NCBI GenBank assembly: GCA_000727475.1
Contig: KL647288.1
Location: 1,632,156-1,696,155, forward strand
Reading direction: 5' to 3'
DNA: 64,000 bases
From: Sarcocystis neurona
Lineage: Eukaryota > Apicomplexa > Conoidasida > Eucoccidiorida > Sarcocystidae
Notes under the pieces: generated by a model
Databases searched by the model: none
What the model was told of the DNA's origin: nothing
Seen by the model: only the letters and a program-made list of their open reading frames with translations
Shown here: positions 2,391 to 62,139 of the stretch, one piece after another
Layout: every line of letters begins with the position of its first letter
Position numbering within the stretch: the stretch's first letter is position 1
Translations under genes and position numbers: made by a program

Positions 2391-3362
2391 AGAAGCAGCG
2401 GCAGCAAAAACAACAACATGCGTCTAAGCAACAGCAGCAACCACATGGTGAATAGCACGAATACAAAACGGGACAGCAGTCTACCAGGAGCTGCACCAGT
2501 TTCATCGACACAAGAAGCAGCACCAGCAGGAGCAACACCACCAGCAGGAGCAACAGCACCAGCAGCAGCGACAGCACCAGCAGGAGCAGCAGCAGCAACA
2601 GGATCACCGCAGCACAGGGGGAGACAGCTGCAGTAAGATCAGCAGCAGCAATCCTGAGAGCAGCAGCTGCAGCGTGACAGCAAGCCAACAGGAGTTGAGA
2701 CAGTAACTGCAGCAGCGGCAGCAGTGAGACGACGTAGCAGCACCAAAAAGGGCGGACCCGCAGCGTTAGATCTTGCGTCGCTTCAACTCAAAAGGGCGTC
2801 CCGGAGTAAGCAGCAGCGGGAAGCAAAGCTACGAGAGCAGGTGTGGGGTCCCTCTCAATGAAAGGAGAAACAGCAGCAGCAACTGCGCGTGAAGCCGCCA
2901 CCAGCAGCAGCGTCAGCAGCAGTCAACAAACACAGCACTGGAAGTGATGGAAAACAGCAGCAGCCACTGGCACGGCTTTCACCCCGCCCCCCCCTCGCAA
3001 GCAGCAGCAGCGGCAGCAAAGCAGGGTGAACAGCAGCACCAGCAGCAGGGGCATCTGAACCAAAATTGGCAGCAGCAGCAGCAGCAGCCACGCGCGAGCA
3101 GCAACAGCAGCGAGGCTTGGTCTCTACCACTAGCAAGCCGCAGAAGGGCACAAGACGGTAATAGCAGCAGCAAAAAAGTAACGCTGCAGGGGCAGTGCGC
3201 AGCAGCCACCATCCCCGCTGCTGCTGCAGCAAAACAGGGAGCCGAGCTGGCACCCGCTTGAATGATACACAGCCGCACAGCGACGCCTGCTTCTGTTGCT
3301 GTGTGTCCCACACAGCAGCAAAGAACAGACTGCGAAGTGTTGCTCCCCCGCAGCAGACTTAC

Positions 3363-6300
3363 TAAGTAAACATCCGCAGCAGCAGTCCCTGCGTCGCTGG
3401 CCTTTTCTTCCACCTCTACCTCTCCTTGCTGCTGCTGCTCCTCCTCCTCCTCTTCCTCCGATTGTTGAGACATGTCGTCGTCCTGCGACTGCTGCTGCTG
3501 TTGCAGGGAAGAACCCTTCGGCATCTCAGCAGCACCAGCAAAAACCCCCCTCCTCCCTTTACTGCTAGGCGACGCCAGTGCCGTCGTTGCTACTCCACCT
3601 GCCGCTTCCTGTGCTGCTGTTGCTGCTGCAGGTGCTTCATGTGCTGCTGTCGCACTACTTGGCTGCACCGACGACGACAGCTGCAAGTCGCGAAGCGACA
3701 CGTCTGCTGCAGCTGCTTCGGGGACTTCTTCTTCTTCTGAAGAAGAGAGCAGTTCATCGAAAAATACCGTCTCGGCAAAACCGGCGGGATTTCCAGCTGC
3801 TGTTGCTGCCCCTGTTGCCGCTGCTGTTGCCCTATCGCCTGACTCTTCTCTCCATCGCTCTCCACGCCTTCGCCTTCCTACTGCCTCTGCTGCTGCTGCT
3901 GCTTCCGCTGCTGCTGCTTCCGCTGCTACTGCTTCTGCTGCTGCTGCTTCTCCTGCTGTCGCTGCTGCTTCTGCTGCTGCTGCTGCTTCGGCGTCTGCCT
4001 CTGCTGCGGCCGCTTCTTCGAGTGTTGCTTCTGCTGCTGCTGCTGAGAGGCGTGGGCCCGGCGGGCGCGCACGACGCCCAGAGAACTGAGCCGGAGCAGC
4101 AACGGGAGAATCTTCCCCTTCTGAAGAGAGCTGCAGCAAAAATAGATCAAGGTCCTCCACTACCTTTTCTGCTGCAGCAGCGGAAGCTGCAGCAACGGCT
4201 GACGCGGCAGCAGCTGCTGCTGCAGCAGGCGACGGATGTGTTGCAGAGATCAAAGCAGCAGCAAACGACAGCGGAAACGACTTTCCTCGCCGGCCACCCT
4301 CCCTAGGAGAAACAGACGAACGCAGCAGCATGCTGCCGTTCAGGCCTGTCTCCCTGCTGTTGTTACTGCTGCTGAGACACGCCTGTCGCTCGCTCCTCGC
4401 CTGTCGCCCCGTCGATCCTATCAACCCCTGCTGCTGCTGTAAAGCCTGTTGCTGCTGCTGCTGCAACGCTTGCTGCTGCTGCTGTAACGCCTGTTGCTGC
4501 TGCTGGTGCAGCGTTTGCTGGTGCTGAAGCAACGCCTCCTGCTGCTGAAGCAACGCCTCCTGCTGCTCACCCGCTTGCAGAGGCTGCAGGCCTGCAGCAC
4601 GTAGCTGTCGGTGCAGTGATCCGTCGGGCCAGAGAGAAAGCTCGTTTTCTCCGTCCACACGTGTTGCTGCTTCTCTTCTCTTTCCGTCTTCGTTTACTGC
4701 TGCCGCTGTCTCTGTTGCTGCGGTTCGTGATGCTGCTTCTGCCTCTGCCGTTGCCGGAGCTCCTCGAGCAGTCTTGCTGCTGCCGCTAGCGGGGAGGCGG
4801 CGCTGCAGCAGCTGTTCGGCAACGGCGTCGCTGTGCAGTGGAAAAGGGTGAGAAGCATTCATCTGCACAGAAAACGCATGCAAGCCTCTTCGGCCGAGAG
4901 GCGGAGGCTGCCACCACCACTGGTGCGGCCCCACAGGTACGTACAACTCTCCCTGTTTACCTTTTCCTCTTCCTTCTCCTCCTCCAACTGCTGCAGCAGC
5001 TGCAGCAGCTGCAGCAGAAGCAATGCGCTCTCGCAGCATGCCTTCTGCTGTCGCGCGTGCTCCGGTTGCGTTTCCACCTGCTGCTGCCTCTCCTCCACCG
5101 CTTGCTGCTGCAGGAAGCAGCAACGAAGAAGAGAGCGAAGCAGCGTCTGCTCCTCGCGACGAATCCGGTGGAAAAAGGACAGTCCGAGCGGGAGAACGGG
5201 CATCCAGGGCGGTTGTTGCTGCTGCCGCTGAAGTCCGTGGGGCAGCTGCCGCTGCTCTAGTGGGTGCGGCTGATAATGACGGTGCTGCTGCAGCAGCAGC
5301 AGGTAGCGCCGGCGACAACGACGCAGCTGCTCCCGGTGCTGCTGGTGTGCGCACACCCAGAGACGCCTGCTGCTGCTGCTGTCCAGCAGAGTCTTGAACC
5401 CGCTGTTGCTGCTCCTGGTGCTGTGGCGGCAGCACCTGCAGGTAAAAGCGCTGATTCGGTTGTTCCGCATGCGGTTGCTGCAGCAGTCCCACAGTGCGTC
5501 GCAGGTACGAGGCGGAGGACGCTTCTGCGGCGGTGAGCGAAGCAAACGAGTAACCGTCGGCTGCTCCCGCTGCTGGTGCTGGGGCGCGCCCTACACGCCT
5601 CGGGAATGCTGTTGCTCCTGCAGCCCGTGCTGCTACACTTGCGCTATCTGCTGCTGCTGTGGGGGTCGCCTGCCCTGCTGCTGCTGACCTTGCTGCCATC
5701 CCTGCTGCTCTGGGCGTCCCCACACTTGCAAGAACTGCAGCTCCTGCTCTGAGGCGCGGCGACTGCACCACGTGATGCAAACCGGGAGAACCGCCCCGTG
5801 GCGCAGCCCCTCGAATCGGAGACGCAGCCGGCGAATCCTGCTGCCGCTGCTGCGCCATCCCGAAGGAAAAGCTGCTGGTGGCTGCGCTGCTACGAGGCGC
5901 TCCTTCCCCTGCTGTGTGCCTTGCCGCCACGTCCGGCAGCGCAGAAACATCCGCTTCTGCATTCGCCGGCAAGTGCTGCTCCGGCTGCTGCCAGGGCTGC
6001 TGCTGCAATTGCTGCTGCCACTGCTGCAACTTCTGCCACTCCTTCTGCTGCTGCCACTGCTGCTGCAGTTGCAACTCCTGCTGCTGCCGCAGGTGTTCTC
6101 GCTCTTGCTGCTGCAGGAAAAGGACGGGGGAGGGCGCTGTGTGGAGAGTGCTTGCTACGAATGCTGCCGGTGTCGTCTTTGGTGCTGGTGCCCCTGCATA
6201 TCCTGCTGCTGCTCTTGCATGTCCAGTTGCTGCTGCCGGCGCTGCTGTTGCATCTGCCTGTGCTGCTGCGGCGGTATCCCTCACTCCGCTGTCGACGCCG

Positions 6301-7790
6301 TTGCTCCGGAGCACCTGTCGCCCCGCTGGCGATGCGTGCGGCGCTGCAAAAGACGGGAGAGCAAAGGAAGAGAACGAAGAGGAAGGAGAGGAGGAAAGCA
6401 GATGTGTCTGCTGTCGCAGCAACCCGGCGTGTGGTGCTGCTGCGGCCGCTCGTTCTCCTTTGTTCGCTGCTGGTGGTGCTGCTCTTGCTGTTGCTGCTGC
6501 TGACAGACTGCGTGGCGAAACGGGAGGCGGAGCAGCAGCAGAAGGGAGAAGTCCTTTGTCGTGGACTCGCGTCGTAGCTTCTGCAGTTTCTTCTTCGTGT
6601 GCACACGAGACGAAGTCATCCCCAGCAGCAGCGGCGGGATTTCTGGTGCTGCTGCTGCCGACCCCGCCCCCCCTGTGGCTGCTACGGGTCGGTCCTCCGC
6701 TGCAGCTGCTGCAGGCTCTGCTGCTGGTGCTGCTCGTCTCACTTTCGCTGCTGCTGGTGCTGCCTGCAGCTCGCGCGCTGCTGCTGCGGCGCGGGGGGGC
6801 GCGCCGCCGATGCATCCGTCTACTTTTGTAGGGGCTCGAAAAAAAGAGAGGGAAGACGTCGTGCGGAGGAGAGCAGAGCACCGGTCCTCCGCCTGCTGCT
6901 GGGAAGCCTGCTGCACGAGAACGCGTTCCTGCTGCTGCCTCATCCCCTGTTCCTGCGCCTGCTGCTGCCGCCGCTCCCGCGGCTGTCCTCCCATGTCCCG
7001 CAACCGGCAGCAACCCCACACCCGCGTCGTTCAGCAGCCACGAATTGCTGTCTGGAGCCGCACTTCTTGCGTCTCCTGCAACGCGGGAGCGCAGCAGCAG
7101 CGACGGAGACGCCATTATCCTGTTCCTCCCGCCGTCTGCAGCAGGAAGCGAACGAGGGGAAGAAGAAGCAGCAGCAGCCAGAATGTTCTTCTCCTGCTGC
7201 TCCGCAGTTGCAGCCCCCATCGAAGAATCTTCAGTCCCCTTCAAGCTCTCCCCCTGCTGCAGCAAGCCCGCTCGCTGCTGCTGCTGCTGCAAACTGCCCC
7301 TCCTGCTGTTCCTGTAAGACACGCCTCCTGCTGCTGCTCGTCCCCTACCACGACTTCTGCTGTTCTGCAGCCACCTTGCGGTGCTCCAACGTGGCCTCCT
7401 TTGCCGCCGCTTGCTGCTGCCGTGTAGCCGCTCGCTGCTGCTGTGTGGCCGCTTGCCGCTGCTTTCTGGCGGCCTGCTGTTGCTGCAGCGGCGGCAGGCC
7501 TGGACGTGTGTCTCTTCCGGATCTGCTGCACAGTTCAGTCCTGTGGAGCTGCTGCTGCAGTGTCCTTGCTGCTCGTGTGCTGCTTCTGCGACGGCTGCTG
7601 CTGTACCTCGTCTTCTCAAGTCGCGCTGCAACAGCAGCAGCTGCCTTGGGAAGCAGCGGTGCCGGCAAAAAGCAGCTGCAGTAGCAGCGTTTCCTGCTCT
7701 TATTTGCCCGCGTCTGCTGCTGCTGTACACGCATGCACACCCCCCTGCTAGTCTTATTTTCAGCCATCTGCTGCCGCTGCTCTGAAGCAC
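3363..7790 (-). CDS. Large Gln/Ala/Ser-rich protein, long exon (hypothetical)
   Basis: The minus strand is open from an ATG at 7790 to at least 3363. I end the exon at 3363 because a perfect GTAAGT donor follows in phase 0 after ...Asp-Val-Tyr-Leu; reading on adds poly-Cys and poly-Leu. This gives about 1476 codons. The more complex parts are a Gln-rich middle (around residues 560-620), the peptide PVGPHQWWWQPPPLG, a Gln/Leu heptad-like run, poly-Ala with periodic Glu, and acidic clusters such as SSSEEEEVPE near the end. No domain is recognised. CAG lies on this strand, the usual coccidian coding orientation. The first few hundred codons are doubtful: a TAG lies just upstream of the ATG, and from 7640 to 7345 another frame gives cleaner Gln/Ala runs, so the true start is probably in an upstream exon. 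The downstream exon is not identified. Confidence 0.55.
4431..4560 (-). repeat. Poly-Gln tract with spaced Ala-Leu
   Basis: Within the long minus-strand exon, runs of four to six CAG codons are separated by GCG/GCA-Leu pairs, giving repeated ALQQQQ words. The spacing of 18 to 24 bp keeps the frame. It is the purest Gln tract of the gene and a likely length polymorphism. Confidence 0.75.
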
Positions 7791-9256
7791 GTGTTGCCTG
7801 CTGCAGCCGCCCTAAGAATACTCTGCGCCTGCGTCGGGCACTGCTGTTGCAGAAACTCCTCTTGCGGCGTAGGCTGCTGCTGCTCCTCTCCTCCTCTTTC
7901 TCTGCCTTTGCCGCGTCTCCGCCCGCTGCGCGCAGGTCACCCACTGCCTGCAACAGCTGCTTTACACACGCTATTGTCGTCCCCCCCCTGCTGCTCTTCC
8001 CTGCTCACCAAGACAATACCTGCTTCTGCTTCTTCTACTTTTGGCTTCCTCTGCGCCGCAGCTGACTCCGGGGGCGCACTCCTGCCGCTGCTCCTCCAGA
8101 GGCTGCACTGCAGCAGTGACACTCGCAGCTGTTGATACTTTCACTGCTGCTGCTGCTGTTGCGACGAGTGTGACCCCTCGGCCACTGCTGCTGCTCCTGT
8201 CGTTACTGCTTTGGCTCCTCTTGGTGAGGCTGCCGCTGCTGCTGATCCTGCTGCTGCTGTTGCACCTGCTGAGATTCCTTCTCCCTCCTGCGGCGCTTTT
8301 ACCCGGGGTTTCTGCTGCGCTGGCTTCACTGCTGCTGCTTTCGACTAGCCTGTCACACGAGAAGTTGCAGCTGTTGTTCCGCTCCACTCTGCTGTCGCGG
8401 CTGTGACGGCTGCTGCTGCTGCCGCTCTTGCTGCTTTGTCTGAGGCTGCGGTTGTTCCGGCGGTTTAACTCATGCAGCTGCTGCAGCAGAAACTGCTGCT
8501 GCCTTACTCGTTGCAGCTGCTGTCGCGGACAGACGCTGCAGCACCGAAGGTCGCTCCGCTGTTGCATGTGCCTGCTGCTGCTGTCTGTGCTGCTGGTTCC
8601 AGCAAGAGACCTCCAGCGTGTTCACAGCAGCAGGGGCGCCTCTGCAGCTGCGGACAGCCGGCAGCTGCTGCATCGGAGAGCGACCGGTGCGACGCCTGTA
8701 GATTGCCTCTATTCTGCTGCTGCTGCTGCCCCTGACTTCCTCGGTTGCCGCTGGCTTGCTCGACTGCCGCTGGCTGCTACTGCCGCTGCTAGCGGCTGTT
8801 GCTGTCCCCGGGATGCGGCGCGCTCCTTGCTGCTGCTGCGGCTGCGGCTGGCTGCGTGGTGTGACTGACACTCTACTCAAGCAGACAAGGCAGCGAGAAG
8901 GTAACACCGTAAATCTCCTGCTGCTGCGAGTCCTCTGCGCTGAAACTACCTACCGCAGCACATACAGCTGCTGCCTCTGCTTCCCCTCGAGTGGGTGGAG
9001 GAACAGCACATACATGTTTACACGTAGGACTGGTCTTCCTGCTGTCAACGATGGACGAGAAATTGTGGGAAACGTAGCCAGTGGAGCTGCCAGGGCTACT
9101 ACTGCTGCCACTGTTGCAGCGAAGCGAGAGGCCTTCTACGTACAAAGACGGAAAGTTTCTGCTGCTCGGGATGCTTGTGCCCCTACGTTTTCCGCTGCTG
9201 CGGCTGCGGTAGCGTGGCATGCAGACACTGTTTGTTTCTGTAGACAGCCACGGCAC
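7791..9256 (-). other. Probable 5' exons of the minus-strand Gln/Ala-rich gene, unresolved
   Basis: CAG orientation continues on the minus strand to about 8900, but no single frame stays open. Protein-like stretches change frame: Val-Glu-Glu-Ala-Glu-Ala near 8020, then TTIACVKQLLQAVGDLRAAG near 7975-7920 in another frame, then QQPTPQEEFLQQQ near 7870 in a third. The first change coincides with a run of eight G on the minus strand (7981-7988). Introns or homopolymer errors could both explain this. An ATG-initiated frame of 127 codons opens at 9256 and ends at 8873 without an obvious donor. I call the area part of the gene but give no exon boundaries. Confidence 0.35.
7981..7988. other. C8/G8 homopolymer at a frame change
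   Basis: Eight C on the plus strand (G8 on the minus, coding-like strand) sit exactly where the protein-like reading moves from one minus frame to the next. A one-base length error here would join the two readings. Confidence 0.6.
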
Positions 9257-19181: not shown

Positions 19182-19395
19182 ATACACGCACACACGTACA
19201 CAGACACGTGTACAGACTCTAAATCTATGTGGCAGTTTCTGCGTAGGTGATGGCCACTTCATGTGGAACATAGATACGTCTTATACATACTATATATATC
19301 TGTATATTAATAGACGTATATTTATGTACGCACCTGCCACAAACAATACGCAGCACAGCGTCTTTCTAAGCCGCAGCTCGTGTTTCTCCGCACAA
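16594..19395. other. Gene-poor stretch with simple repeats
   Basis: TA-rich words (16740-16950, 18540-18680, 19080-19150) and CA repeats dominate. The longest frames (17481-17768, 18047-18601) have no repeat bias, domain or paired splice sites. It lies beyond the 3' end of the clathrin light chain gene. I see no supported gene. Confidence 0.6.
19149..19176. repeat. (CA)14 microsatellite
   Basis: Fourteen uninterrupted CA dinucleotides, followed by CACATACACG variants to about 19210. Confidence 0.9.
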
Positions 19396-19693
19396 AGTGA
19401 GAAGCCACAACACTGCACACCAGCTGCTCTCTGCTGCTGCTGCTACTGCCGCCCACTTCTTTTCTTCCGCGACCGTTCCCAGGGTGGCGCAGCACTTTCT
19501 TGCTGGTGCGCGCTGCTGTTGCTCTCGGTGCTTCCTGTCGCAGTTGCCCTTCCCGCTCAATTCCTGTTGCTCTCTGCCCGGTCCTCCCCGTCTCAACACC
19601 GCGGACGCGGCTGTTGCTCTGGCAGCTGATGCTAATGTTTGGCTGCTGCTGCTGCTGCTCCTGCTCCTCCTGCTGCAATTGCTCCCGCTATTT

Positions 19694-22600
19694 TTAACAC
19701 GCCTTGCCTTGTTCCTGCGCACTGAGCTCCAGCAGCAGTTCCCTCATTTTGAAGCGGTCTTTCAGGCTGCTGCCTGGCGCTCCGGCAGCAGCCCCCGCTG
19801 CTGCTGCTCCTGCTGCCGCTGCTGCTCCTGTCGCTCCTGCTGCCCCTCCTCCTCCTCCTCCGGTTTTCTTCTCTCCCGCACTGCCACCGTTGCTGCTCCG
19901 GCTGCTGCTGCGGTCGTCCGCTTCTATCAGCTGAACGACCCGCGCCCATCCGTTGCTGCTCGTCTTCTGCGCCTCCGCCTCCCGCGCTGCTTCTTCGCTC
20001 TCCTTCGCTCTGCGCGCCACAGGCCAACAGCAGCAAACCCACACCGGGCCGATCAGCCTTACCCGCAGCAGCGGCAGCAGGACGACAGAACGAATCGCAG
20101 CAGGCGGAACAGTAAAAGCAGCAGGGAAAAGATAAGCAGCAGCTCAACGAACAGCAGCAACAGCAGCGCTACTACTATGTGCCAGTGGCTGCAACAGCAG
20201 TGCCTCGATTTTAACCCGCAGCAGCGGCAACAGCAGCAGAAGCCAAACGCATCCCCCCGCCCCCCCACCTTCCCAAAACGAGAACTGGTACGACCAACAG
20301 CAACAGCATTCCCGTCCCGAAGCCGACGAAACGGCAGCAAGGGCACAGCACAGACAGAAGAGAACAGCAACGGGCAGCGGGAGTGATGTCACACACGCTG
20401 CAGCAGCAGCAACAGCTGAGTCCGCGACACCAAGACTCCACGGCGAACAGGATCTGCCCTGTGCAACGCCCCCGCAGACGAGAAATCTGCATATAGCAGC
20501 AGCAGCAGGGTTCATATCCATTACGTCCTGTTTCCGTCTCTATTACTTCGGCAAAGAGAGTAGACACGCACAGGCCGCACACGAGAAGCGCGGGGATGTA
20601 GACACGGCGTCTACACTTCTCCACCCATATCTCTAGACACACCCGCACAAGCCGGACCACTGCGCACTCCTAAAAACAGCTGCATGCGCCTCACACTTTC
20701 TTGCCTGTCCTTTTGACATCAGTTCGTCTGACATATATGCAGTAGACATATATGCAGTAGAGACACAACACTGTACAGGCACGTGCACACACCTATGTAT
20801 GGATAAGTACGCTACACACATTCATATGTATGTGTGTACACATATATATGAATGCCCACACATATATATATACACACTAATGCAGGCGTACACACACATA
20901 TATACATATATATATATATATATATGGGAAAGCCCGCGTCAAGTGCCTCAGTTCGTCGGCTGGAGCTGCTGGGCTCTGTATTCACACGCAGAGATCTACG
21001 TCTCCCGCACGCGTACGCAGCAGCAGCCGCATCACGCCCGTCCCCTCTTTATAGGCACATGTGTATACACTCACACACATGCAACACTACATATGTCCAC
21101 ACATTTGTATATTTATATAAATACGCATGCAGGAGTCGCATGCAGACGTCCACATTTCATCCGTGTTGTATGTACGTTTGCGTACGTCAATTGATACGCA
21201 CGTATACTCGCATGCAAAGAAATTCCACACGCTTGTTGTGTACGCCTGGGTATGTTCATACATACATATATGTCAATTTCCACAGGCGTTTCATGGACGC
21301 TCGTGTATGTGACCCACACATTTATTCTCCATATATATGCAGACGCATGCAGTCTCCCACGTACGTAAGTGGGTCCTTCCAGTCTGCCTATCTGTTGGGG
21401 GCTCTGCTGCTGCTGCTTCGACACTGCACCTCTGTTGCTGCACACGGCCACGTCGGTGCCCAGTTTTTACGCTGCCCGCTGCCTGCTGCTGGAGTGCTGC
21501 TGCTCCTGCTCCTCACGCTGCAGCAGCTGCATCTCGGGCAGCCCAGGCCCCCCCTTGCAGGGCTGCTGCTGCTTCTTCTATGTGTGCGCACGCACATACG
21601 TACATATATGGAAGGACCTGCCATCTACGAATATACGTACGAGCTCTGCGGCAGCTGTTGCCTGTGACTCGCCTCTGTCTGAATGGATGCGTAGCTGCCC
21701 CACCTGCAGCTGCTTCTCACCTACAGACCCACGTACGTGCATGGAGAACTTTGCTATCTTTTAGCTGGCACCGCGGTCTGCTCCTGCTGCTGCTGTGGTC
21801 AAACATACATACACACACATGTGGGGTCACGCAGATGCTGCTGCTGCTGCTTCTTCTTCTGCAGGACCCGAGCACTCTCTGCTGCTCCACGTTGCTAAAC
21901 GCGAACAGACTCACTGATTCGCTTTCCTTCTGCGCTCCATCTGCTGCTTCCGTTTTTCGTAGAATTCCCGCAGGGCGTCTTGTGCCAGTTCCCTCTGTTC
22001 TTTCTTCTGCTGCGCCTCTCCCCTGCGCCTCGCCTCCACTTCCTGCTGCATCTGCATGCGAATCTGGTCGACGGCGTGGCGGGCTGCAGCGTCGAGGGCG
22101 TCTTCCTCTTCGGCTGCTGCAGCTCTTCTGCCGCCCTCCCCGCCTCCTCCTCTTCTTCCTTCTTCCTTTCCTCCTCCGGCCTCTTCGTCCGCAAAACTGC
22201 TGCCGCGGCTGCCGTCCACACCCGTGGCAGGAGGAGGAGGCGACGCACCAGGAACCGCAGCAGCACACTCATACAAACAGCCGTTCACGACGGCTTGCTG
22301 CTGCTGCTGCTTCATCGCCGCTGCTGCGTCTGCGGCAGCTGCTCGTCTCCCGTCCCCTGCGGTTAGAGCGCTCCCTGCAGGCTGTCTCCTTCCCACCTGC
22401 GGCTCCTCATCTCCCCCTCTCCCGGCAGCAGCAGCAGCAGTCATTCGTACCGGACGTGCATGGCCACTTCGCTCTCTCTCCTCCTCCTCCTCCTCTCCGA
22501 CGAACTGCTGCTGCTGCTGCAACAGGTCGTCTCCTTCTGCAGCGTCGCTGCTGTGGCCGCCGTACAGTCGCTTCTGCTGGCCCCTCCCTCCCTGCTGCTC

Positions 22601-36596: not shown

Positions 36597-39500
36597 ATGG
36601 CGCATCACAAGGCTAGCGAACAGGCGGCTGCGACACGAGTTAGGGCAGCAGCAGAAGCAGAAATAGAAGCGGCAATAGGCACAGCGGAAGACAGAGCAGC
36701 ACGAGTAGCAGCAACGGCAACGGCGGGAGCCGCAGCGACAACTGCGCCAAGAGTAGCAACAGACACCGCCAGGGGAGAACTAGGGGCAGCAACACAGAAA
36801 GAAGGAGCAGGTAAAGGGTCGCAGAGGGTCGTAACAAGGAATGCAGGAGGAGAAACGGAAAGACAAATGGGGAACCAGCAGGAGGCAAAGGTTTCTCACA
36901 ACGAGCGTGATGATGAGAACATAAACAGCAGCAGCCGTTGCAGTAACAGCGGCAGCAGGATCGGTATTGCCACGAGCAACAGCGGCCAAAGAAACGGTAG
37001 CAGCAGTGGTACCAGCAGCAGCGAATGTCTCCACACGTGTAGTGACAGAAGGAACCCCAACGGAGGGATGGCAGAAGAGACCGTAACACGTGCAGCAGCA
37101 GCAGCAGAAGTGTACACGTTGCGGTCACAGCCTGTATCACGTACTGCTGTTTCCGCTGCCGAAGTGCTGCTGATGGGTGCGAGAAGCTGCGAGCGGGGAA
37201 GAGAGGCTGCTGCTGCTCACTGTGAATGGATGCACTCGCCCCAACAGCCTGGAGACCACCAACAGATCCAGCAGCAGCAGCGGCAACCCGGGCAGGATCA
37301 GAGAGAAGGAGAGCAGCAGCAGGGGGAGGGAGTGTCGGAGCAGGAGCAACAAGGGAAGCAGCAGCAGCGGCAAGCACCGGAGGAGGACCTGCAGCAGCCG
37401 CAGCATGAAAGACAGGAACAGTCTGTCCAGCGGAACCCGCAGCAGTGCACGCAGGAGAATCAACATGAGGGACAGCAGTATAATCGACGGCGTCCGCCCC
37501 AGGAGTGCAGGGAGCAGCAAAATGAGCGTGGCTCGGCTGGAAATGTTGTGGGGTTAGCAGGGGGAGAACCTCCGTCTGCGAGGGAAAGCAGCAGCGCAGT
37601 AGCGAGGGCGTTCGGCAGTGCAGAGGTCACTCGAGGTGTGCAGGCAGCCGGGATGGAATCGGTCCCATCTGCTGCTCGTGCTGCACTGTTGGGCGTTTTG
37701 ACGCCCCTGAGTACATCCTTCCCGGATGCCGCATCTCCTGTTGCCCCTCAAAACCCGTCCAGCAACCGAACGGCAACGTTCGAACGGAATGCTGCACCAG
37801 TCGCTGCAGCCCCGAGACGAAGCGCCGCATCGACAATTTCAAATCCACGTAGAGGAACAAGAGAGGGAGCGACGGTAGCAGCACGTAGTGTTGGGGCGGC
37901 GCGGAGGGCGGCAGCAACACGCATCATAGCCATAGCGCGCAGAGCACCGGTGGGAGGCAGTAGCAGGGTAGCGAACAGTACGATAGCACCAGAAGCAGGG
38001 CGCGCTGCAGCTAGGAGAGTGGCAGTAGCAGCGAGGAGAATAGCAGCAACTCGTAGAGAAGCGGCACACGCGGAAAGAGAAAGGGCAAGAGCGGAAGCAC
38101 TTGCGATGTTGGAGCAAGCAGCTGAAGCAGAGTCAGGTGAGGAGGGCCTTGAGATTGCCGCAGCAGCGGCAGCAACGCATGCAGCAGCAAGTGGAGGAAG
38201 CGGGTCTGTGCCGAGCTACCAGGACTTCGTGTCTCTCTTTCGTGCGGACGGGGAGTCATTCACCGGCAACAGACACCACGAGGCCGCAGCAGCGGCAATG
38301 GACTTTTTGGGGGACACGTGGGTGGCAGAAGTCGCGGCAGAGGAGGTGAGTAGCTTTTCCGATAGCGAAGAGGAGCTTGTGCTATTCTGCCGGGAAGGCG
38401 CTGCGGCGGTACCAAGAAGAGCAACAGCAAGACCAGGAGGATGGGGACGAGGGGCAGCATCAAGAGTCGTCCCAGGAGGCGTGTCAAGAACAGCCGCAAG
38501 AGCATCAGCAACTAGACCAGAAAGAGTTGCAATCGACGAAAGAGGAGATAGGCAGTCGCCTCTCTCGATGACCAGAGCAGCAGTACGGGCGCTGCAGGCA
38601 GCGCGAGACGGTACAACCGCAGATACAGCTGTAGGGGAAGCTGCAATGCGCGCATCAGTAGCAGCACTACGAAGCGCGGCAGCATCAGACGCGGCAGAGG
38701 AAACTGATGCACGCGAAGGACACGGTAGAGCAACGCGTGGTGCGGGAATCACCCGAACACTAGCCCCAGCACCTGCAACAAGCACAAGAAGCGGAGGGCC
38801 TGCAGCACCGAGCACACGGCAAACAACGCGGCTGCTGACAGGAAGTACACCAGCAGGCAGAAGAGGCGCAACAAATAGAGCATCAGCTCGGACGACCGCG
38901 TACCCCACTGTAGCATCAACGGGTCCTCCCACACGGGACACAACGGCTCGAAGGAACCCTGAAGCAGGAAGTGGAAGAGCATCATCAGGAAGAGGCAGAA
39001 CAGGAGAAGAAAGAGCGAGACCTGCGGCGGGGACTGTAGCTGCGGCGGGACCAAGAATAACAAAGGAGAGAGATGCATGGGGGTCCACGCACGACGCTAG
39101 CGAGCGCGAGTTGCAGCTCAGGGTGGCTGCTGCAGTGTCACTGCTGCTGAATGACCAAGTACAGAAAGGCCCTTTACATGCAGCCTGGAACAAGCTGCTG
39201 CAGGAGGGAGACGCTGTGACAAAGAAGAAAAACTTTCGCTCTATTCAAGATATGGGAGGGAGTTTTTGTTGCCCCGTTTGCTTCGACTCGTTCTACAGCA
39301 CACCCTCTAGACGCTCAGCACATCGCAAGAACAGCCACTGCAGCAACAGCAGCAAGAGCAGCAACAACAACACCAACCGAAGCAGCAGTAGCAGGAAGAA
39401 CAGCAGCAGGAACCACCGGCCCCAGAACAACAGCAGAGGGGGACCTCGCAACAGCACGGATGGGAGGCCGAGACGCCGTAGTGGCAGCCGCAGCAGAAAC

Positions 39501-42500
39501 GACAGAGGAGACATTGCAGGAAGAGGTGATCGCAGCGGTCGCAGGAACGAAAGCACCGGCAGCAGCAGGAGCGAGAGGGCTGAGAGCAGCTGGAGCTGTG
39601 GCATCATTAGGAGACCCAAAAGGCATGAAGCGAACAGCCGCGCGAGACACAGCAGTCCTAACAGTAACAACAGCCACCGTGCGACGCAAAGGCGGGGCGG
39701 CAGCAGGAGGACCGGCAGCAACTCTAATAACGACAGTAACAGCAGCGGAAATGAGGGCAACGACGGCGCTACTGTACAGACAAATCTGGGGCACCGCGGT
39801 ACACCTGCCACGGCTGTGGGGGAAGCTGCTGCAGACGAGCGGCGCACCCAAGCCACGCAGAGGAGCGTGGACAACCTGCCCGAAAGCAGCACCTTTAGTA
39901 GTGGCGGAAGCCGCAGCCAAAGAGAGAGGGGAGCCGACAGCTGCACCGCGTTGGACGGCGGGAGCAGCAGCAGCCGTTGCTGCTCTGGAAGCAGCGGATC
40001 GGGCTCCGAAAGAACTAGAGAAGGCGGTGCAGCCGCAGCGGCAGAAGGAAGAGCGGCACCAGGCGCGGGAGATGCAGCAAGGAGAGCAGCAGTGGACGCA
40101 GCAGGAGCAGCGAGAGAGGCTGCCGATGCGCTGTTGTCGCCAGTGCGGGAACAGGAGCAGGCGGACAGGAGACTGGCAGAGGAGGATGGAGCACATGACC
40201 ACCGTAGGACAGCAACAGGAGAACGGCAGCAGCAGCGGGGAGAAAGAGCAACGACGGAGTCGGCCGCAGCACACCAACGAGACGAAGACCTGAAGGTCGT
40301 CCTGATGAGTGGGAAATGCGGACACGCCGTCTGCCGAACGTGTGCGGCTTCGTGGCTGAGACAGCAAATTATCAAGCGCATCTCTCCCGCGAGGGTAAGC
40401 ATCAAGAGGGGAACAGTCCACCCTCGCCGCAGACTGCAGCAACAGCAAGGCTCAGCGGCAGAAAGCAGAGTCACAGCAGCAGTGCCTAGTGGGAGGAGTA
40501 GCTAATAGATACACCAGTAGGCAGCAGCAGCAGCAACAGGCAACAGTAGCAACAACAAGAAGCAGCAGCACCAGGACCAAGCGTTCCTAGCGCATAACGT
40601 CAGCAGCGCTCAAGTGCAGCTACAGCTGCAAGGCTCGAAGCCTTGGAGGAGCCAGCGTATGAAAAAGAGCAGAGGGGCGGCGGGCGCACTTGATAAGCTA
40701 CAGCTGCAGGAAGTCACAGGAATTAGGAGAAGCAGAAGCAACGCAGCAAAAGCAACGCACCAGTGCTGCTGGTAGATCCGGCGCTGCAGACATCCAGTCT
40801 ATGCCTCGTGTCGCTAGCACACTAACTTCTCCACCTCTCAAGCAAGGTGCACGTGCGGTACCTGTGCTCAACGAATGCCACAAAGCGGACACTCATATCT
40901 CGCGGTTTCAAGCGGCGTCACTTCCATATAAAAGAGAACTGGTCTGTATAGACGGTTACGTGGCTGCAGGTAGCGTACGCTTAAGGGGGACGCACAGGCA
41001 GGGCAAAACGACTACAGGGCAGTGCCGACCTGTTGTCTGCGTATATGTATCTGGGACCTCCGCACCTAAGCGCTGAAAGCATGTCCACATACATATGTGT
41101 ATATAATGCAATGGCCTTTATAAGTAGACGAATAGATGCAGGGCGCCGGGTAACACTCAGAAAAACACACATATTTCTCCGCAAGGGGGAACACACCTGT
41201 GCCGTCTCACTTCACGCGGAAAGGTGCCCGAGTTTACATACAAAAATCCACATAATGACAGAAACTGAAGAGAACGTAGACAAATGGTCTGCGGCCTGTC
41301 ACGTACACTAGACAGACGCCTAGGGTGCAACGAGGCACTGGCCCTTCAAGGATGCTGACGCATGCAGCAGCACGTGTGTATGTGGTGAGCGATCTCCTCA
41401 AAATACTAACGTAATGGAGCACACTGATGTAGAGCGGCTCTCTCATTCCACCAACTGCTGCTCAAACACGTATACTGAGCAGCGGTTTCCACTAGCCACC
41501 TCACCGGCATGTAGCCGCATCAGTGCTCTCATGTGACGACGACCCCATAAACATATATATATATATATATGTATCTACATGTGTACTTACAGAGGAACAT
41601 AATATCGTAGCGGCCGTCTATGTGTGTACAAAGTTCACGGTACCTGTTGATAACCCTTTTTTGCCGGAGACGCCTCTCTAGGCCACTGCACCAGGATTTG
41701 TATTGACAGTTGCGTGTACCTGCAGTGGAGCCCCTGTCCACAGACGTGATCTTTGAACGTACCCGTGTATGTATCTGTGTCTATTTGTATGTCTGTCTTT
41801 TCTCATGGAGGGACGATCGTGTCCACTTTCGCCGTGCGTTATTCAGTAGCGTCTAGAAAGTGATATCTCTTTGAGCGTATGGTTTTAATCGACGCCAGGA
41901 GGTGAATGTACACGAGCGTATACAAGCACACACGCGTGTTCGTATACAATGTAGGCCCCTACAAGAGGTAATGGGAATGGTCTTGCAAGACACGCATATA
42001 TATATATGTATATATGTATATCTGCAAGTGTCTACGAATGAACATTCATGCAGTGGTCACAGAGCTGTGTCCAAAGCTAACGACGTGTGTACACATATAA
42101 CGCTGCTTCGAAATTTCGCCAGGCACGCAGAGGTAGATCTAGGTCGGCCTCTCGGTAGGTCCAGGTTCTGCTGCAGCGGATGCCCTGCGGTGCAGGGTGC
42201 TGGTAATGGTGAAACTGGAGCTTTTTCCTTCACTCTGGTGCACTTGCAGCGGCTCGGCATGCCTGCTGCGTCACCCCTGTTGTTGCTGCGTTTGCGATTC
42301 ATGTCTATGCCGCGGTTCACCTTTTGGCTCGTTGCTGTCCTGCTGCCGCTGCAGTGTCCAGTCTGCCGGGGAGGCGAGCTCGATGAACGCACCGCACGAC
42401 TCCTGCTGTCGTCGTCTCTTGGCGAATGGCTACACTACGTGGAGCTGAAATACATGGGGCTGGGCCTGCCGACTCCGCTGCATAAGCTGTTACTGGAAAA

Positions 42501-44854
42501 TAGACGACCCTGCTTGTACGTTTCCGGTGCTGCTGCTGGGGCTCGCAGAAGTGCGGCACAGGAAGTGCTCGTCACAACGAGAGTGCGAGCGCACAGACAG
42601 GAGAGACAGCAGCAGGCCCGGGAGCACCAGCAGCAGCGACGGAAACGAGCAGAGCAGCGCCAGGGAGGACGGGGGCAGCAGAGGCAAAGACGGCGCCGCC
42701 GAAGACGTCGTCGCCAGCTACAACAGGAGCTGCGACAGCGGCGGCAAATACGGCAGACACTTACGCAGCACTCAGATCTTGAGGGGGAAGACGAGGTGGA
42801 GGATGAGCACGTTAGCAACCGCAATGAGCAGACAAGTCGAACTCGGCGCGGCTGCGGCGGCCTCGGCCGGTCGCAGCACCAGCGGGATGATGGAACCGAG
42901 GAGGAGTCACAGCAACTGTGGGAAGCTGAGAGCGAGGAGGAGCCACAGCAGCGGCAGCGGTCGCACGACACTCAACTTCACCAGGAGGAAAGAATACGTC
43001 CGCCCCTGCGGCAGCAGCAGGAAGAAACAGAGCGGCCGCAGGAGGAGTGGCAGCGAGAACAGCACCAGCAGAGGCAGCAGTACCAGGCGGACTGGCGAGT
43101 CCCGAGATCACTCTATGAGGAAGCGTTGGACGAAGTGGAAGAGGGAATGCTGGAGAAGTTGGAAGAGGCCTTGAGGCAGCGGCTGCAGCGGGAGCTGTAC
43201 GTGTGCGGGCTTGGCGAACTGGAGTTGCCGACGAGCGAAGACGTTGAGGACGGCAGAATTCCTTCAGTAAATCTTCTTTCGCTTCTCCCCACAGAAGGCC
43301 TGCAACGTGCGCAGCGGCAGCAGCAACTCGATTTGCTTGTAGAAGATGTGGCTACCTATGGCCTGCGCCGGTGTCCCGGCTGCGGCATCGCAATTCAACG
43401 CGTGGGCAACCTCGACGATATTCTCTGCAGGTGAGGCAGCGCGACAAGCGTAGCAAGAATATGTAGCAGCGGCACGCTGGAAACGCATGTACGACTGCGG
43501 TGCGCAGCAGCCGATGCAGCGAGATAGAGGTGTAGGTGAGATCTGGCGGAATGACGATTGTACGAGTGAGCTTATGCGCAGGCTGTAGCCAGTTCACACA
43601 CTCTTTTTTGGGTGAACGAACCTCACAGAGTACGAGAACGTGAAGGCCGGCCTTGACAAAGTCCGTGTTACTTTGTGGGAACCGTGTGCAAGGGTGCCAG
43701 CGCATCGACGTGTGGATTCGCCCTCTTAGAAAACTGCTTTGAAGAGACTTGCTCTTAGTGTTCTCACCAGGAGCGGCGGCGTAGGATGAGGAGGAACTTC
43801 CACGTACGTAGTGTTGCTGGATGCGTGTGTAGATGATGACCTACCACTGCGCCTGTCTCTTGTTTAACTTCCGACAGTTGCAGCATTGCGTACGTGTCTG
43901 CCGCACGTGTGAGAGCGCATCCGCACGGCATTGTGAGTTGCAGGCCCACAGAAAAGATGTCCGCGAATTCGACGACGCTGGCCGATTCTCCTGGACTCCT
44001 GCACTTGAGCTCAAGCTGCTGCAGGCACACGTAGACGTGCAACGGGTGCTTATTTACAGAGCCCTCTATACGCTACCGAGTTCGCTTCGTCTATCCAGTC
44101 CTGCGGTGCCCAGCATGAGTCTTACGTAGTCGTACGTGGCCATGCGCTCCCTGTTGCTGGTCCTGCGCTTTTGCTGACGGTGCACAGGTGTGGCTGCCGT
44201 TTCTGCTACGCTTGTGGGGAGATGCTTCAAAGCAGTTCCTTCTGGGCGCTGCTGCAACACCGGCGTATATGCCCCGGAAGCAGCAACAGCAGACCTCCCA
44301 TGGGTGGGGCTTCTTCGATCTCTCGTGTTTTAGACAACAGACGAAACACCGGCAGTATAGTCGTCACCAGCGCCAACATACTCAGGACCAGCAACAGCTC
44401 CGGCAGCAGGAGAAGCAGAAGCACCAGCAGCAGCAGAGGCATCACAGGCCACCGGCCGCGGGAACGCAATAGAAACATCACTCCCGGCACGGACGCCGGA
44501 TTAGCTGCTGATGCTGCTAGTGGCGGTGCTCGCGTGCGGATTGGTGCCGCTTCTGCCAGTAGTGCTGCTGCATCTCCGTCTGCTGCTGTCAGTGGCAACA
44601 GTAGCAACGCCGCACGAGCTAGCTCCGGGCTCGCTGCGTCCCTGGCTTCTCTTTTTAGAAGAGCAGCGTGCACCCAGAATAACGAAACCGGCAGCATCGT
44701 CGTCACCAGCAACTTCCGTAGCAGCAGCCACGACTGCAGCAACGCTGGCAGCAGCAGGAACAGGAACGGCAGCAGCGGCGCCGCCGTCACCGAAGGACGC
44801 ACAGGCGAAAGCGACAGCGACAACGACCCGGAAGAGGGCAGCTCTTCTGCGTAG
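36597..44854 (+). CDS. RBR-like E3 ubiquitin ligase with a non-canonical Rcat (three exons)
   Basis: Exons 36597-40394, 42355-43430 and 44188-44854 join in phase (donor GTAAGC, acceptor GCCGCTGCAG; donor GTGAGG, acceptor GGTGCACAG), giving 1846 residues and a TAG stop. Residues 1-890 are Ala/Arg/Gln/Glu-rich low complexity with a more complex part near 540-600. RING1 ligands are C892, C895, C1241, H1243, C1246, C1249, C1267 and C1270; the last pair is created by the first splice. A 345-residue Ser/Asn/Arg/Ala insertion splits the first zinc loop. Residues 1271-1600 are Arg/Gln/Glu-rich, with only three Cys, so no canonical IBR is present. The RING2/Rcat-like part (RCPGCGIAIQ, then C1624, RCGCRFCYACG, then a His/Cys pair) is rebuilt across intron 2. 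The catalytic Cys position five residues before C1624 is Leu1619. Active RBR ligases pass ubiquitin from E2 through that Cys. The family call is strong; activity is doubtful. The start is the first ATG after an in-frame stop; upstream exons are possible. Confidence 0.75.
40395..42354 (+). other. Intron 1 of the RBR-like gene
   Basis: It runs from GTAAGC at 40395 to a CTGCTGCCGCTGCAG acceptor ending at 42354 (1960 nt). The intron starts CAG-rich, then becomes mixed with TA words (41550-41580, 42000-42020). It separates the sixth RING1 ligand from the final Cys pair. The small frames inside it (40690-41076 and others) are not supported as genes. Confidence 0.72.
43431..44187 (+). other. Intron 2 of the RBR-like gene
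   Basis: It runs from GTGAGG at 43431 to CGGTGCACAG ending at 44187 (757 nt). It splits codon 1625 (AG|G, Arg) inside the Rcat-like motif. The reconstructed CRCGCRFCYACG across the junction is the strongest evidence for the boundary. Confidence 0.8.
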
Positions 44855-59000: not shown

Positions 59001-59182
59001 AAGCATATACATATATATATATATGTATAGAAAATCGAGAATGTCTATATATATGCATGCACGTTGGACTGCGCCCTTGCTTCATGACAAATATGCCTCC
59101 TTTGATGCAGAACAACACCCGTCGTCAGCTTTTTTCGTAGCTCTCGTTTGAAACAGCGAAGAATTTGACTTTTGCTTTACTT
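59001..59182. other. TA repeat and spacer before the CTG-rich block
   Basis: Two short TATATA tracts (59010-59025, 59048-59056) are followed by about 120 bases of unique sequence. They separate the minisatellite from the next CTG-rich block. Confidence 0.5.
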
Positions 59183-61482
59183 TCACCAGAGCCGTCGTGC
59201 TCCGCAGATGTCTTCTCTCCCTCCTGCCAAAAATACTCTCCACACAGAATTGTTCGTCCCGCACCATGCCGCGACTATCAACGGCTGCGCATTCTGCTGC
59301 AAGTCCCGATAACCCTGCTGCTGCGGCTGTTCTCGTGTCCGCTGCTGCGCGTCCTTCCGCCTGGCGTCCTTTTTCGCCCGACGCTGCTGCAGGGAACTCT
59401 GCTGCCGCTGCTCTTTCTTCTCCTCCTGCCGCAACTTCTGCAACTGCATCTCCTGCTCCAGCGGTTTCTCCGGCCGCAGCTACCTCTCCGTCTCCAGCGG
59501 TTTCTCCTGCCCCAGCTGCTTCTCCTGTTGCTGCGGTTTTTCCTGCAGCACCTGCTCCTCCTGCAGCACCTGCCTCTCATTCAGCATCTTCCACTGCTGC
59601 AGCTCCTCGTCCTGGCTCGTCGAGTTTTTCCACGGGTCTTCCTCGCTTCTCCCCAGACGCCTCTGTTGCTGCTCTGGTGTGCCCTCCCGCTTTCTCTTCT
59701 CCTATCTTACCGGCGTCTGCAATCCCTTCCCCGGTTTCTTCTTTCTGCTCTCCTCAATCTCATTCCCCCGCTTCTTTCTCCTTCTCCTATTCTGCGTTCT
59801 TTTTCCCTTCCCAGATTGCCTTCCCTCTTGCGCTAACTCCGCCTGCTCCTTCTTCTTCTTCTTTTCCTGCAGCGCCCTGCATCTCACCAGCAGGCAATCT
59901 CTCTACCTCAGCTGCAGCCGCACATCCTGCTGCGTTCCGTCCTGCTCGCGCTGCTGCTGGGACGACTTCTACAGCCGCGTCTGCTGCTGCTGCTTCTCCT
60001 CCTTCTCTGCCGCCTGCTGCGCCCACCTCTCCCGCTGGTAGAAAAGCAGCTCCCAGTGCTCCTGCAGTGGCGCTATCTGCTACTGTTCGTCGCCAGCCCT
60101 CCGCAGCTCCTGCTTCACGCGCTGCTGCCGCAGCTCCTGCTGCTGCTGCGTCTGCGATTCTTGCTGCTGCAGCACCGTGTCTTCTTGCTGCTGCTGGTGC
60201 CCCTGCGCTTTCTGCTGCAGCACGTTCTCCTGCCCCTGCCGTGCTTCCTTCTCTCACAGGCCATCCTTCTGCCGCTGCAACTTCCTCTGCTGCTGCAGCT
60301 TTCTCTCGGGCTGTTAAACCTTCCTCTACTGCTGTCCTTTCTCGCGCTGCACCACTCTCTCCGGCGACTTCTGCTGCTTCGTCCGTCTCTGCTGCTATAG
60401 TTGCTGCTGTACCCGCTGCAGCTGCCTCTGCGAGGTGTCGGGCTTCTCTTCCACGTGCTGCTGATCGAACGGTGAAGTGTCATCAGCCGCCTGCTGCACC
60501 TTCGTCTTTGCCTGCTGCTGCCGTTTCTCCTGGAGCCTCGCTTGTGCGTGACTCTGCCGCTGCTGCTCCTGCACCTGCAGAGTCTGTTCCTATCGCTGCT
60601 GCTGCGCCGTCTTCGTCGATGCTTGCGTCTCTCCGCCCAACACGTGCTACACTGCCGACGCCTGCTGTTCCATCGGTTCTGCCCATCCCTGCTGCTCCCG
60701 CGCTGCCTCCTGCTGCTCTTTGGCAGCCTGCCGTCCCTGCTGCTTTGCTGCCTGCGGCTGCTCCTGCTGCTTCCCTGCCTGCTGCGACTGTCTGGCTGCC
60801 TGTTCCTGCTGCTGCTTGGGTCGCGGCTGCTGCGACCGCTCCCCTTCCATCTGCGTCTGCAGTTCTTGTTGCCGCTTCTGCTGGGAGCTGTCCTGCCACT
60901 GCTGCTGCTTCTCGCACGCGTGTTGCTGCTGGCGGTGTTGCTGTTCCTCCTCCTGCTGCGGTTGCTGTGCGTCTGACTGCCGCCTCCTTCCATCCTGCTG
61001 CTGCTGCTGCTCTTTCTTCTACCGTGCCCGCGGCTGCAGTTTCTGTGCCTCGTACTTCCTTTCCTCCTCTTTTTCACACCAGTTTCTCTTCTTCTTCTTC
61101 TTCCTCTTGTCCTTCTTATTCGTCTTCTCCGTCATCGTCGTCGTCACCACTGCCGTCATCTACTTCTCCCTCTTTTTCGAATTCTTCTTCTTTTTCTCCC
61201 TCTCCTCTGTGTCCATCCGCTGCTGCTGCTCTCTTCCCTGCGCCTGCTGTCGATTGCGCTGCGGTCCTGCGGACTGCTTCCCCTGCTCCTCGTCCAAGTA
61301 CTGCTGGCCCCGCAGACGGCGCAGATGTCTGCGCTGGTGCATGCCCCTGCTCTCGGCTTCTTGTCCTTTCTTCTTCTTCTTCTTCCTCTTCTGCTGCTGC
61401 TGCTGATACTTGTGCTGCTGTATCGACGCCTTGTCATGCTGCGGCTGCTGCTGGCTGCTGCTCCGGTGTTGGAGGCGTGATG
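59183..61482 (-). pseudogene. Gln/Glu/Lys-rich coiled-coil-like frame with 13 stops
   Basis: Read on the minus strand with codons starting at positions 1 mod 3, this block gives continuous Gln/Glu/Lys/Arg/Leu sequence with no frame change over 2.2 kb, for example DEELQQWKMLNERQVLQEEQ and QIAPLQEHWELLFYQRERW, ending at a TGA at 59183. The frame contains thirteen internal stops: eleven TAG (complement triplets start at 59480, 59702, 59903, 59969, 60080, 60326, 60395, 60590, 60647, 61019, 61160), one TGA (60254) and one TAA (60314). Either it is a decayed gene, many small introns hide the stops, or the appearance comes from CAG-rich DNA that never coded. It overlaps the plus-strand 980-codon frame. 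Confidence 0.3.
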
Positions 61483-62139
61483 ACAGGCCTTCGCTGCAGC
61501 ACCGACAGCAGCATAAAGAAGAGGAGCGCAGCTGCCTGCCGTGTGCTGCTGCTGCTGCTCCTTCTCCCCCTGCTTCTGCCTCTTGAACATTTCTCTGTGA
61601 AAGATCGCCACGCCACCAACAACGCTTTCTCTACAACAGCAATGAAAAACGCATGCACCTGGGGGGAGGGTCGTCCAGCAGCGCCGCGTGGGTGCAGCAG
61701 CTCCAGCATCAGGAATAAGCAGCAGCAGCACTCAAGCAACTCGGAAGGAAGTCGCACGGCGGCTCTGCTGGTCTTCGCCCACGCCCACGTTACCCCGACC
61801 CTTCCAGCTGCGACGGTGAGACTTCTTTATCCTCTGCGTGCCGTGCTTCTCCTGCTACTGTTCTTGCTGCCGTGCTTCTCCTGCTTCTGCCTCTTCTGCT
61901 GCTGCCTCTCCTGCTGCTGTTTCTCCTGCTGTGCTGCTCCTGGTGTGCCGTTTTCTGCTGTGCTGCTCATGCTGTACTGCCCCTGCTGCGGCGGTTCCTC
62001 CTCCTGCTCCTCTTCCTCCTCAGGCTGCTGCTGCTGCTCTTGCTGCAGTGCTGCTCTTGCTGTGCCTCTTTCCTGTTGCTGGGGCCGTTGCTGCCCCGGC
62101 TGCGCTTCTCCTCCTCCTGCTGCTGCTCCCCCCTGCTGA
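59197..62139 (+). CDS. 980-codon Ala/Ser/Pro-rich open frame (coding status doubtful)
   Basis: The plus strand has no stop in this frame for 2.9 kb. Residues 1-780 are Ala/Pro/Ser low complexity with poly-Ser near 640-700; a possible ATG start is at 59266 (MPRLSTAAHSAASPDN). After about residue 790 the frame passes into Leu and Cys runs typical of antisense triplets, so coding, if real, ends earlier. Against it: CTG lies on this strand, whereas the supported genes here carry CAG on the sense strand. For it: the other two plus frames and all minus frames have several stops over the same interval. No domain is recognised. Confidence 0.28.
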   Translation: MLRRCLLSLLPKILSTQNCSSRTMPRLSTAAHSAASPDNPAAAAVLVSAAARPSAWRPFSPDAAAGNSAAAALSSPPAATSATASPAPAVSPAAATSPSPAVSPAPAASPVAAVFPAAPAPPAAPASHSASSTAAAPRPGSSSFSTGLPRFSPDASVAALVCPPAFSSPILPASAIPSPVSSFCSPQSHSPASFSFSYSAFFFPSQIAFPLALTPPAPSSSSFPAAPCISPAGNLSTSAAAAHPAAFRPARAAAGTTSTAASAAAASPPSLPPAAPTSPAGRKAAPSAPAVALSATVRRQPSAAPASRAAAAAPAAAASAILAAAAPCLLAAAGAPALSAAARSPAPAVLPSLTGHPSAAATSSAAAAFSRAVKPSSTAVLSRAAPLSPATSAASSVSAAIVAAVPAAAASARCRASLPRAADRTVKCHQPPAAPSSLPAAAVSPGASLVRDSAAAAPAPAESVPIAAAAPSSSMLASLRPTRATLPTPAVPSVLPIPAAPALPPAALWQPAVPAALLPAAAPAASLPAATVWLPVPAAAWVAAAATAPLPSASAVLVAASAGSCPATAAASRTRVAAGGVAVPPPAAVAVRLTAASFHPAAAAALSSTVPAAAVSVPRTSFPPLFHTSFSSSSSSSCPSYSSSPSSSSSPLPSSTSPSFSNSSSFSPSPLCPSAAAALFPAPAVDCAAVLRTASPAPRPSTAGPADGADVCAGACPCSRLLVLSSSSSSSSAAAADTCAAVSTPCHAAAAAGCCSGVGGVMTGLRCSTDSSIKKRSAAACRVLLLLLLLPLLLPLEHFSVKDRHATNNAFSTTAMKNACTWGEGRPAAPRGCSSSSIRNKQQQHSSNSEGSRTAALLVFAHAHVTPTLPAATVRLLYPLRAVLLLLLFLLPCFSCFCLFCCCLSCCCFSCCAAPGVPFSAVLLMLYCPCCGGSSSCSSSSSGCCCCSCCSAALAVPLSCCWGRCCPGCASPPPAAAPPC

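Follow-up and report, generated by a model that had tools for sequence, protein, structure and literature searches.

A coccidian RING protein of Sarcocystis neurona with a C-terminal Rcat-like zinc module bearing leucine at the place of the catalytic cysteine

Passages of PMC2904391 give C3HC4 - C6HC - C3HC4 as the signature of RING-between-RING (RBR) ubiquitin ligases. Their catalytic triad is Cys-His-Glu/Gln, of which the His and the Glu/Gln are not fully conserved among RBRs, and the active-site Cys of human RNF216 is Cys688 (passages of PMC9834252). The nearest published case found to the gene described here is Arabidopsis ARIADNE12 (ARI12), in which the catalytic Cys of RING2 is likewise replaced; according to passages of PMC4503874 the substitute is Ser, with which an ester is still possible, and the protein belongs to the RBR family. 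The gene under study lies on the plus strand of a 64,000-nucleotide stretch of Sarcocystis neurona DNA (contig KL647288.1, positions 1,632,156 to 1,696,155), the whole of which is called the window and whose first letter is position 1 in the coordinates below. Unlike ARI12, its product carries a C-terminal Rcat-like zinc module in which the catalytic place is taken by Leu and the His and Glu/Gln places are altered as well, and it has no IBR domain. Searching proteins with the module gave three orthologues with 75-80% identity over 85-88% of the module query region: Cystoisospora suis CSUI_002390, Besnoitia besnoiti BESB_047130 and one Neospora caninum protein. Cystoisospora and Besnoitia are members of the Sarcocystidae, as is Neospora. 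Statements on the four proteins refer to these three and that of the window. The features of the module are the following.

43372-44272, plus strand: Rcat-like zinc module (residues 1606-1653), interrupted by intron 2 (profiles, predicted fold); the Cys1606 codon starts at 43372
43411-43413, plus strand: Leu1619 (CTC), place of the catalytic Cys (alignment to RNF216 RING2; Leu in all four proteins)
43417-43419, plus strand: Asp1621, place of the catalytic His (RNF216 and parkin alignments; invariant in all four)
44195-44197, plus strand: Cys1628, a ninth invariant Cys besides eight candidate zinc ligands (Cys in all four)
44198-44200, plus strand: Arg1629, place of the catalytic Glu/Gln (RNF216 and parkin alignments; invariant in all four)

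The module motif reads RCPGCGIAIQRVGNLDDILC/RCGCRFCYACG, with Leu1619 at the place of the RBR thioester Cys, and all three orthologues read GIAIQRVGSLDDV[LV]CRCGCRFCFACG. The core aligns without gaps to RING2 of human RNF216, with Leu1619 opposite Cys688. The two domains have in common this core, the C-x2-C pair, a 14-residue spacing and the C-R-C-G and C-Y-x-C motifs; they differ in that RNF216 has its active-site Cys, a Gln and an IBR where the window protein has Leu, Arg and no IBR. The four proteins carry Leu-Asp-Arg instead of Cys-His-Glu/Gln. Neither a thioester nor an ester is possible at Leu1619 since a Leu side chain can form neither. The residue is not an error because the Cystoisospora, Besnoitia and Neospora orthologues carry it too. 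An origin of the Leu in a wrongly placed splice junction was considered and is ruled out: its codon stops 17 bases upstream of the end of exon 2, away from the junction, and the orthologues agree. At the sequence level Leu1619 is therefore a constrained character common to S. neurona and three sarcocystid genera. A preliminary description of this DNA, made from the window's letters, had already noted an Rcat-like module that has Leu at the catalytic Cys place and retains its zinc ligands, and both observations hold in the orthologues and profiles; its view of the change as lineage-specific stands only in the broad sense of a change common to these sarcocystids. The Asp1621 and Arg1629 changes go beyond what it listed.

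The eight candidate zinc ligands, C1606, C1609, C1624, C1626, C1631, C1634, H1649 and C1653, are invariant in the four proteins, their assignment being made by alignment, not by structure. The 123-residue joined fragment of the window protein matches Pfam IBR with 26.0 bits (cut-off 24.3), and module fragments from all four proteins match in the family search; in NCBIfam, all matches of two fragments of the protein lay below cut-off. A profile of the four module sequences compared with the PDB has ARIH1 as its best match (E 8.7e-5), RNF216 being also matched. ARIH1/HHARI differs in its RING1-IBR-RING2 order, its C-x4-C loop II, the Asp at the linchpin place and its catalytic Cys. When Rcat and IBR profiles were set against each other, Rcat was preferred in all four proteins, with 22.0-22.6 bits versus 12.2-13.2 bits; the profiles come from small sets (5 and 6 sequences), with which left-out known domains were sorted correctly in 11 of 11 cases. 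The predicted structure of an 87-residue module piece has a pLDDT of 73. Its top Foldseek match is RNF216 RING2 (E 1.8e-3, with nothing at 1e-3 or better), and the structural matches to it are headed by RING2 domains with modest Z scores. By profile and predicted fold the module is placed with the Rcat (RING2) type rather than with the IBR/BRcat domains that naturally lack a catalytic Cys. It is under strong constraint although it lacks the catalytic residues, as 39 of its 49 positions are invariant across the four proteins versus 15/31 in the second half of the RING and an identity of 18-20% between the window protein and the three orthologues N-terminally to residue 1230 (231/1157, 182/944 and 154/859 aligned residues).

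No IBR was found between the RING and the module by profile search, which gave a single IBR-family stretch per protein, located on the C-terminal module. Exon 2 of the window gene, which holds the linker, matched no family when searched alone. The distance between the last Cys of the RING and the first Cys of the module is 168 residues in Besnoitia, 335 in the window and 114 in each of Cystoisospora and Neospora, the Cys-free linker of these two measuring 111 residues. These linkers cannot hold a C6HC domain since they have too few Cys (0 in Cystoisospora, 0 in Neospora, 1 in Besnoitia and 3 in the window). The protein is not an RBR because no IBR stands between its RING and its Rcat-like module, and the label "RBR-like" used in the preliminary description is not supported. 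From the RBR organization it has the C3HC4 RING and the C-terminal Rcat-type domain; it lacks the IBR between RINGs, the Rcat Cys, the triad His and Glu/Gln, and a RING1 free of a linchpin. All four proteins show the features of a canonical RING ubiquitin ligase (E3), namely C3HC4 ligands, a C-x2-C loop II and, as the residue in linchpin position, Arg. The RING is encoded as follows.

39270-39281, plus strand: first half of the RING, Cys892-Pro-Val-Cys895 (orthologues read FTCPVCLE)
39282-40316, plus strand: low-complexity insert of 345 residues between RING zinc ligands 2 and 3 (same place in orthologues)
40317-42369, plus strand: second half of the RING, across intron 1, with C1241, H1243, C1246, C1249, W1253, C1267, C1270 and Arg1271

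All eight ligands (C892, C895, C1241, H1243, C1246, C1249, C1267 and C1270) are present in the four proteins. Trp1253 and Pro1268 are also conserved in all of them. A Trp four residues past the sixth ligand is a feature of RINGs, and the Trp and Pro of RING E3s contact the ubiquitin-conjugating enzyme (E2). The insert at the same place measures 318 residues in Cystoisospora, 301 in Besnoitia and 268 in Neospora. When joined, the window fragment matches Pfam zf-RING_2 with 28.8 bits (cut-off 27.3) and zf-C3HC4 with 26.3 bits (cut-off 21). The RING ends in CPVC-R in the four proteins, that is, with a C-x2-C loop II followed by an Arg (Arg1271 in the window) at the linchpin place. According to passages of PMC5462532, the last pair of canonical RINGs is invariably C-x2-C and a linchpin is found in over half of them, while RBR RING1s have a C-x2-4-C loop and no functionally analogous linchpin residue. 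The window RING agrees with canonical C3HC4 RING E3s in its ligands, loop II, the Arg after the eighth ligand and the Trp four past the sixth, and differs from them by the insert of 268-345 residues between ligands 2 and 3 and by the attached Rcat-like module.

The explanation favored for these data, with a probability of about 0.58, is that the gene codes for a coccidian RING-type E3 with a C-terminal dead Rcat and no IBR, which would work via its RING alone. Action through the RING alone, one of the two outcomes put forward in the preliminary description, is the best-supported mechanism on sequence grounds because of the C-x2-C zinc loop II and the Arg at the linchpin place. From the residues, their conservation, the absence of an IBR and the Rcat-type profile we infer ligase activity, direct transfer and binding by the module. 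The split C3HC4 RING would bind E2~ubiquitin, whose closed form would be favored by the linchpin Arg1271, and ubiquitin would pass from the E2 directly to a substrate lysine. The Rcat module retains its zinc sites and, probably, the putative surface with which RING2 domains face ubiquitin or a partner. It would form no thioester since Cys, His and Glu/Gln are replaced by Leu, Asp and Arg, and it may keep ubiquitin, a chain or a partner close to the RING. Most likely the module is thus a docking part, not an enzyme centre. Non-covalent contact with ubiquitin would be a natural role for such a dead Rcat, as structures of HOIL-1 RING2 and of RNF216 with ubiquitin or di-ubiquitin exist (PDB entry titles). 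If the gene is such an E3, its family would separate Rcat binding from Rcat chemistry in a domain whose Cys defines RBRs. Annotation based on the IBR match only would be corrected; such parasite genes would otherwise be miscounted as RING/HECT hybrids.

Several points weigh against this explanation, which is drawn from sequence and a modest structure model. The AlphaFold model of a 506-residue Neospora piece has a mean pLDDT of 40. In the full-length orthologues Pfam IBR scores 20.7-21.5 bits, under the cut-off of 24.3, and Pfam RING matches, probably because of the insert, are below cut-off in two of the three and absent at E 1 in Neospora. Intron 2 splits the module, and the gene is missing from the matches of the IBR-family search made on the whole genome. 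With 268-345 residues inserted into it, the RING may not fold well. The short loop II is also found in HOIP (passages of PMC5462532) and the C-x2-C loop is for this reason not decisive by itself; together with the linchpin Arg it hints at ligase activity without being proof of it. The absence of the catalytic His is a weak sign when taken alone, as RNF216 has Arg and HOIL-1 has Trp at that place.

These features could have arisen if an RBR-derived ligase went back to the RING mechanism, lost its IBR and triad, came to have the linchpin Arg that is missing from RBR RING1s, and in coccidia retained the dead Rcat, strongly constrained, as a non-covalent ubiquitin clamp. This is a possible but tentative candidate that assumes a direction, the alternative being a RING that gained an Rcat. 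The protein searches described below brought up no outgroup sequence having Cys where these proteins have Leu, and ancestral loss is consequently not established. The module might also be a BRcat/IBR-type domain that never had a catalytic Cys, so that nothing was lost, which would fit its Pfam family name; the lower score of the IBR profile in every protein makes this doubtful. It is somewhat harder to accept that the protein is a pseudo-ligase, a zinc scaffold in which neither RING nor Rcat transfers ubiquitin. The large insert within the RING and the missing Rcat triad speak for it, yet the presence of the eight RING ligands, Trp1253, Pro1268 and Arg1271 in all four proteins is unexpected for a dead RING.

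Relocation of the nucleophile to Cys1628 has very little in its favor. This residue adjoins the place of the catalytic Glu/Gln (one residue before), is invariant and extra to the eight candidate zinc ligands, and corresponds to Ala in RNF216 and Leu in parkin. However, no His or Glu/Gln partner for it stands at the known places, it could instead serve as a zinc ligand, and adjacent residues of a strand usually point in opposite ways. The least credible explanation is an artefact of gene model or sequencing. It could be invoked because the DNA is that of one genome, the start codon is unproven and all three orthologues come from a database under hypothetical-protein names; against it, both the Leu-Asp-Arg set and the joined sequence over the two introns recur in three other genomes. 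The gene, for which CAG-rich coding sequence and the relatives found point to a coccidian, is organized as follows.

36597-44854, plus strand: whole gene, 1846 residues, three exons (spliced translation, junctions matching three orthologues)
36597-40394, plus strand: exon 1 (spliced translation)
40395-42354, plus strand: intron 1, GT-AG (junction in agreement with orthologues)
42355-43430, plus strand: exon 2 (spliced translation)
43431-44187, plus strand: intron 2, GT-AG, interrupting the Arg1625 codon
44188-44854, plus strand: exon 3, with the stop codon at 44852-44854

The length of 1846 residues presupposes that translation starts at the first ATG in the open frame. The intron 1 junction joins PAR/CPVCR, where the orthologues are continuous as PAVCPVCR, PAMCPVCR or PATCPVCR, and the intron 2 junction joins LCR/CGCRFC, where they are continuous as LCRCGCRFC or VCRCGCRFC. 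The gene model is supported since the orthologues run through both junction sites with matching sequence.

The protein searches, with length limits that together span about 319-4651 residues, accepted 3 of 9, 0 of 7 and 2 of 14 candidates, the last 2 being already known. They returned no orthologue from Toxoplasma, Hammondia, Sarcocystis, Cyclospora or Eimeria; the gene may be absent there, or its model may be missing from the database. The alignment proposed in the preliminary description could accordingly be made with the profiles and three orthologues, all with Leu; those of Eimeria, Toxoplasma and Cyclospora which it had named were not returned. Searches of the genome (an assembly of 123 Mb in 74 contigs, the window being on contig 1) with the module and with the RING gave the exons of this gene and one weak match at C1:8233350. 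From these searches the gene looks single copy in its genome, the counts being lower bounds as the searches were run exon by exon. The weak match (L009 2350-2460) is a short exon that reads CLRCGAVLHLESGCAKMRCRCGFKFCF, an Rcat-like piece with Cys and a normal ESGC motif. Five matches, spread over three places, came from the IBR-family search of the genome: one place is an Ariadne-type RBR, and the other two, on C8 and C18, are below cut-off, with no clear RBR seen among their listed open frames. In titles and abstract openings of the published literature no account of such a coccidian protein was found, nor a paper carrying the Besnoitia or Cystoisospora locus tag of the orthologues.

The Ariadne-type RBR of the same genome (G000:C1:2332153-2332776, minus strand) has an Rcat of the same fold class as the module, and differs from the window protein in keeping the catalytic Cys (NQGCMHMTC), the IBR and a C-x4-C loop II (CPYYKC). 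In this gene (L002 1195-2151, minus strand) a long low-complexity insert splits the IBR, the catalytic Cys being kept. A survey of apicomplexans includes a RING/IBR architecture among those of Plasmodium falciparum E3s (passages of PMC2408969); the likeness to these ligases is one of architecture label, the residues and any following RING2 not being given in those passages. Elsewhere in the window, predicted open frames of 1610 codons (2982-7811, minus strand) and 995 codons (59152-62136, plus strand) have no Pfam match at E 0.001. The open frame at 19370-20383 (plus strand) matches DcuA_DcuB, a C4-dicarboxylate transporter family, with 20.5 bits, below the cut-off of 27.
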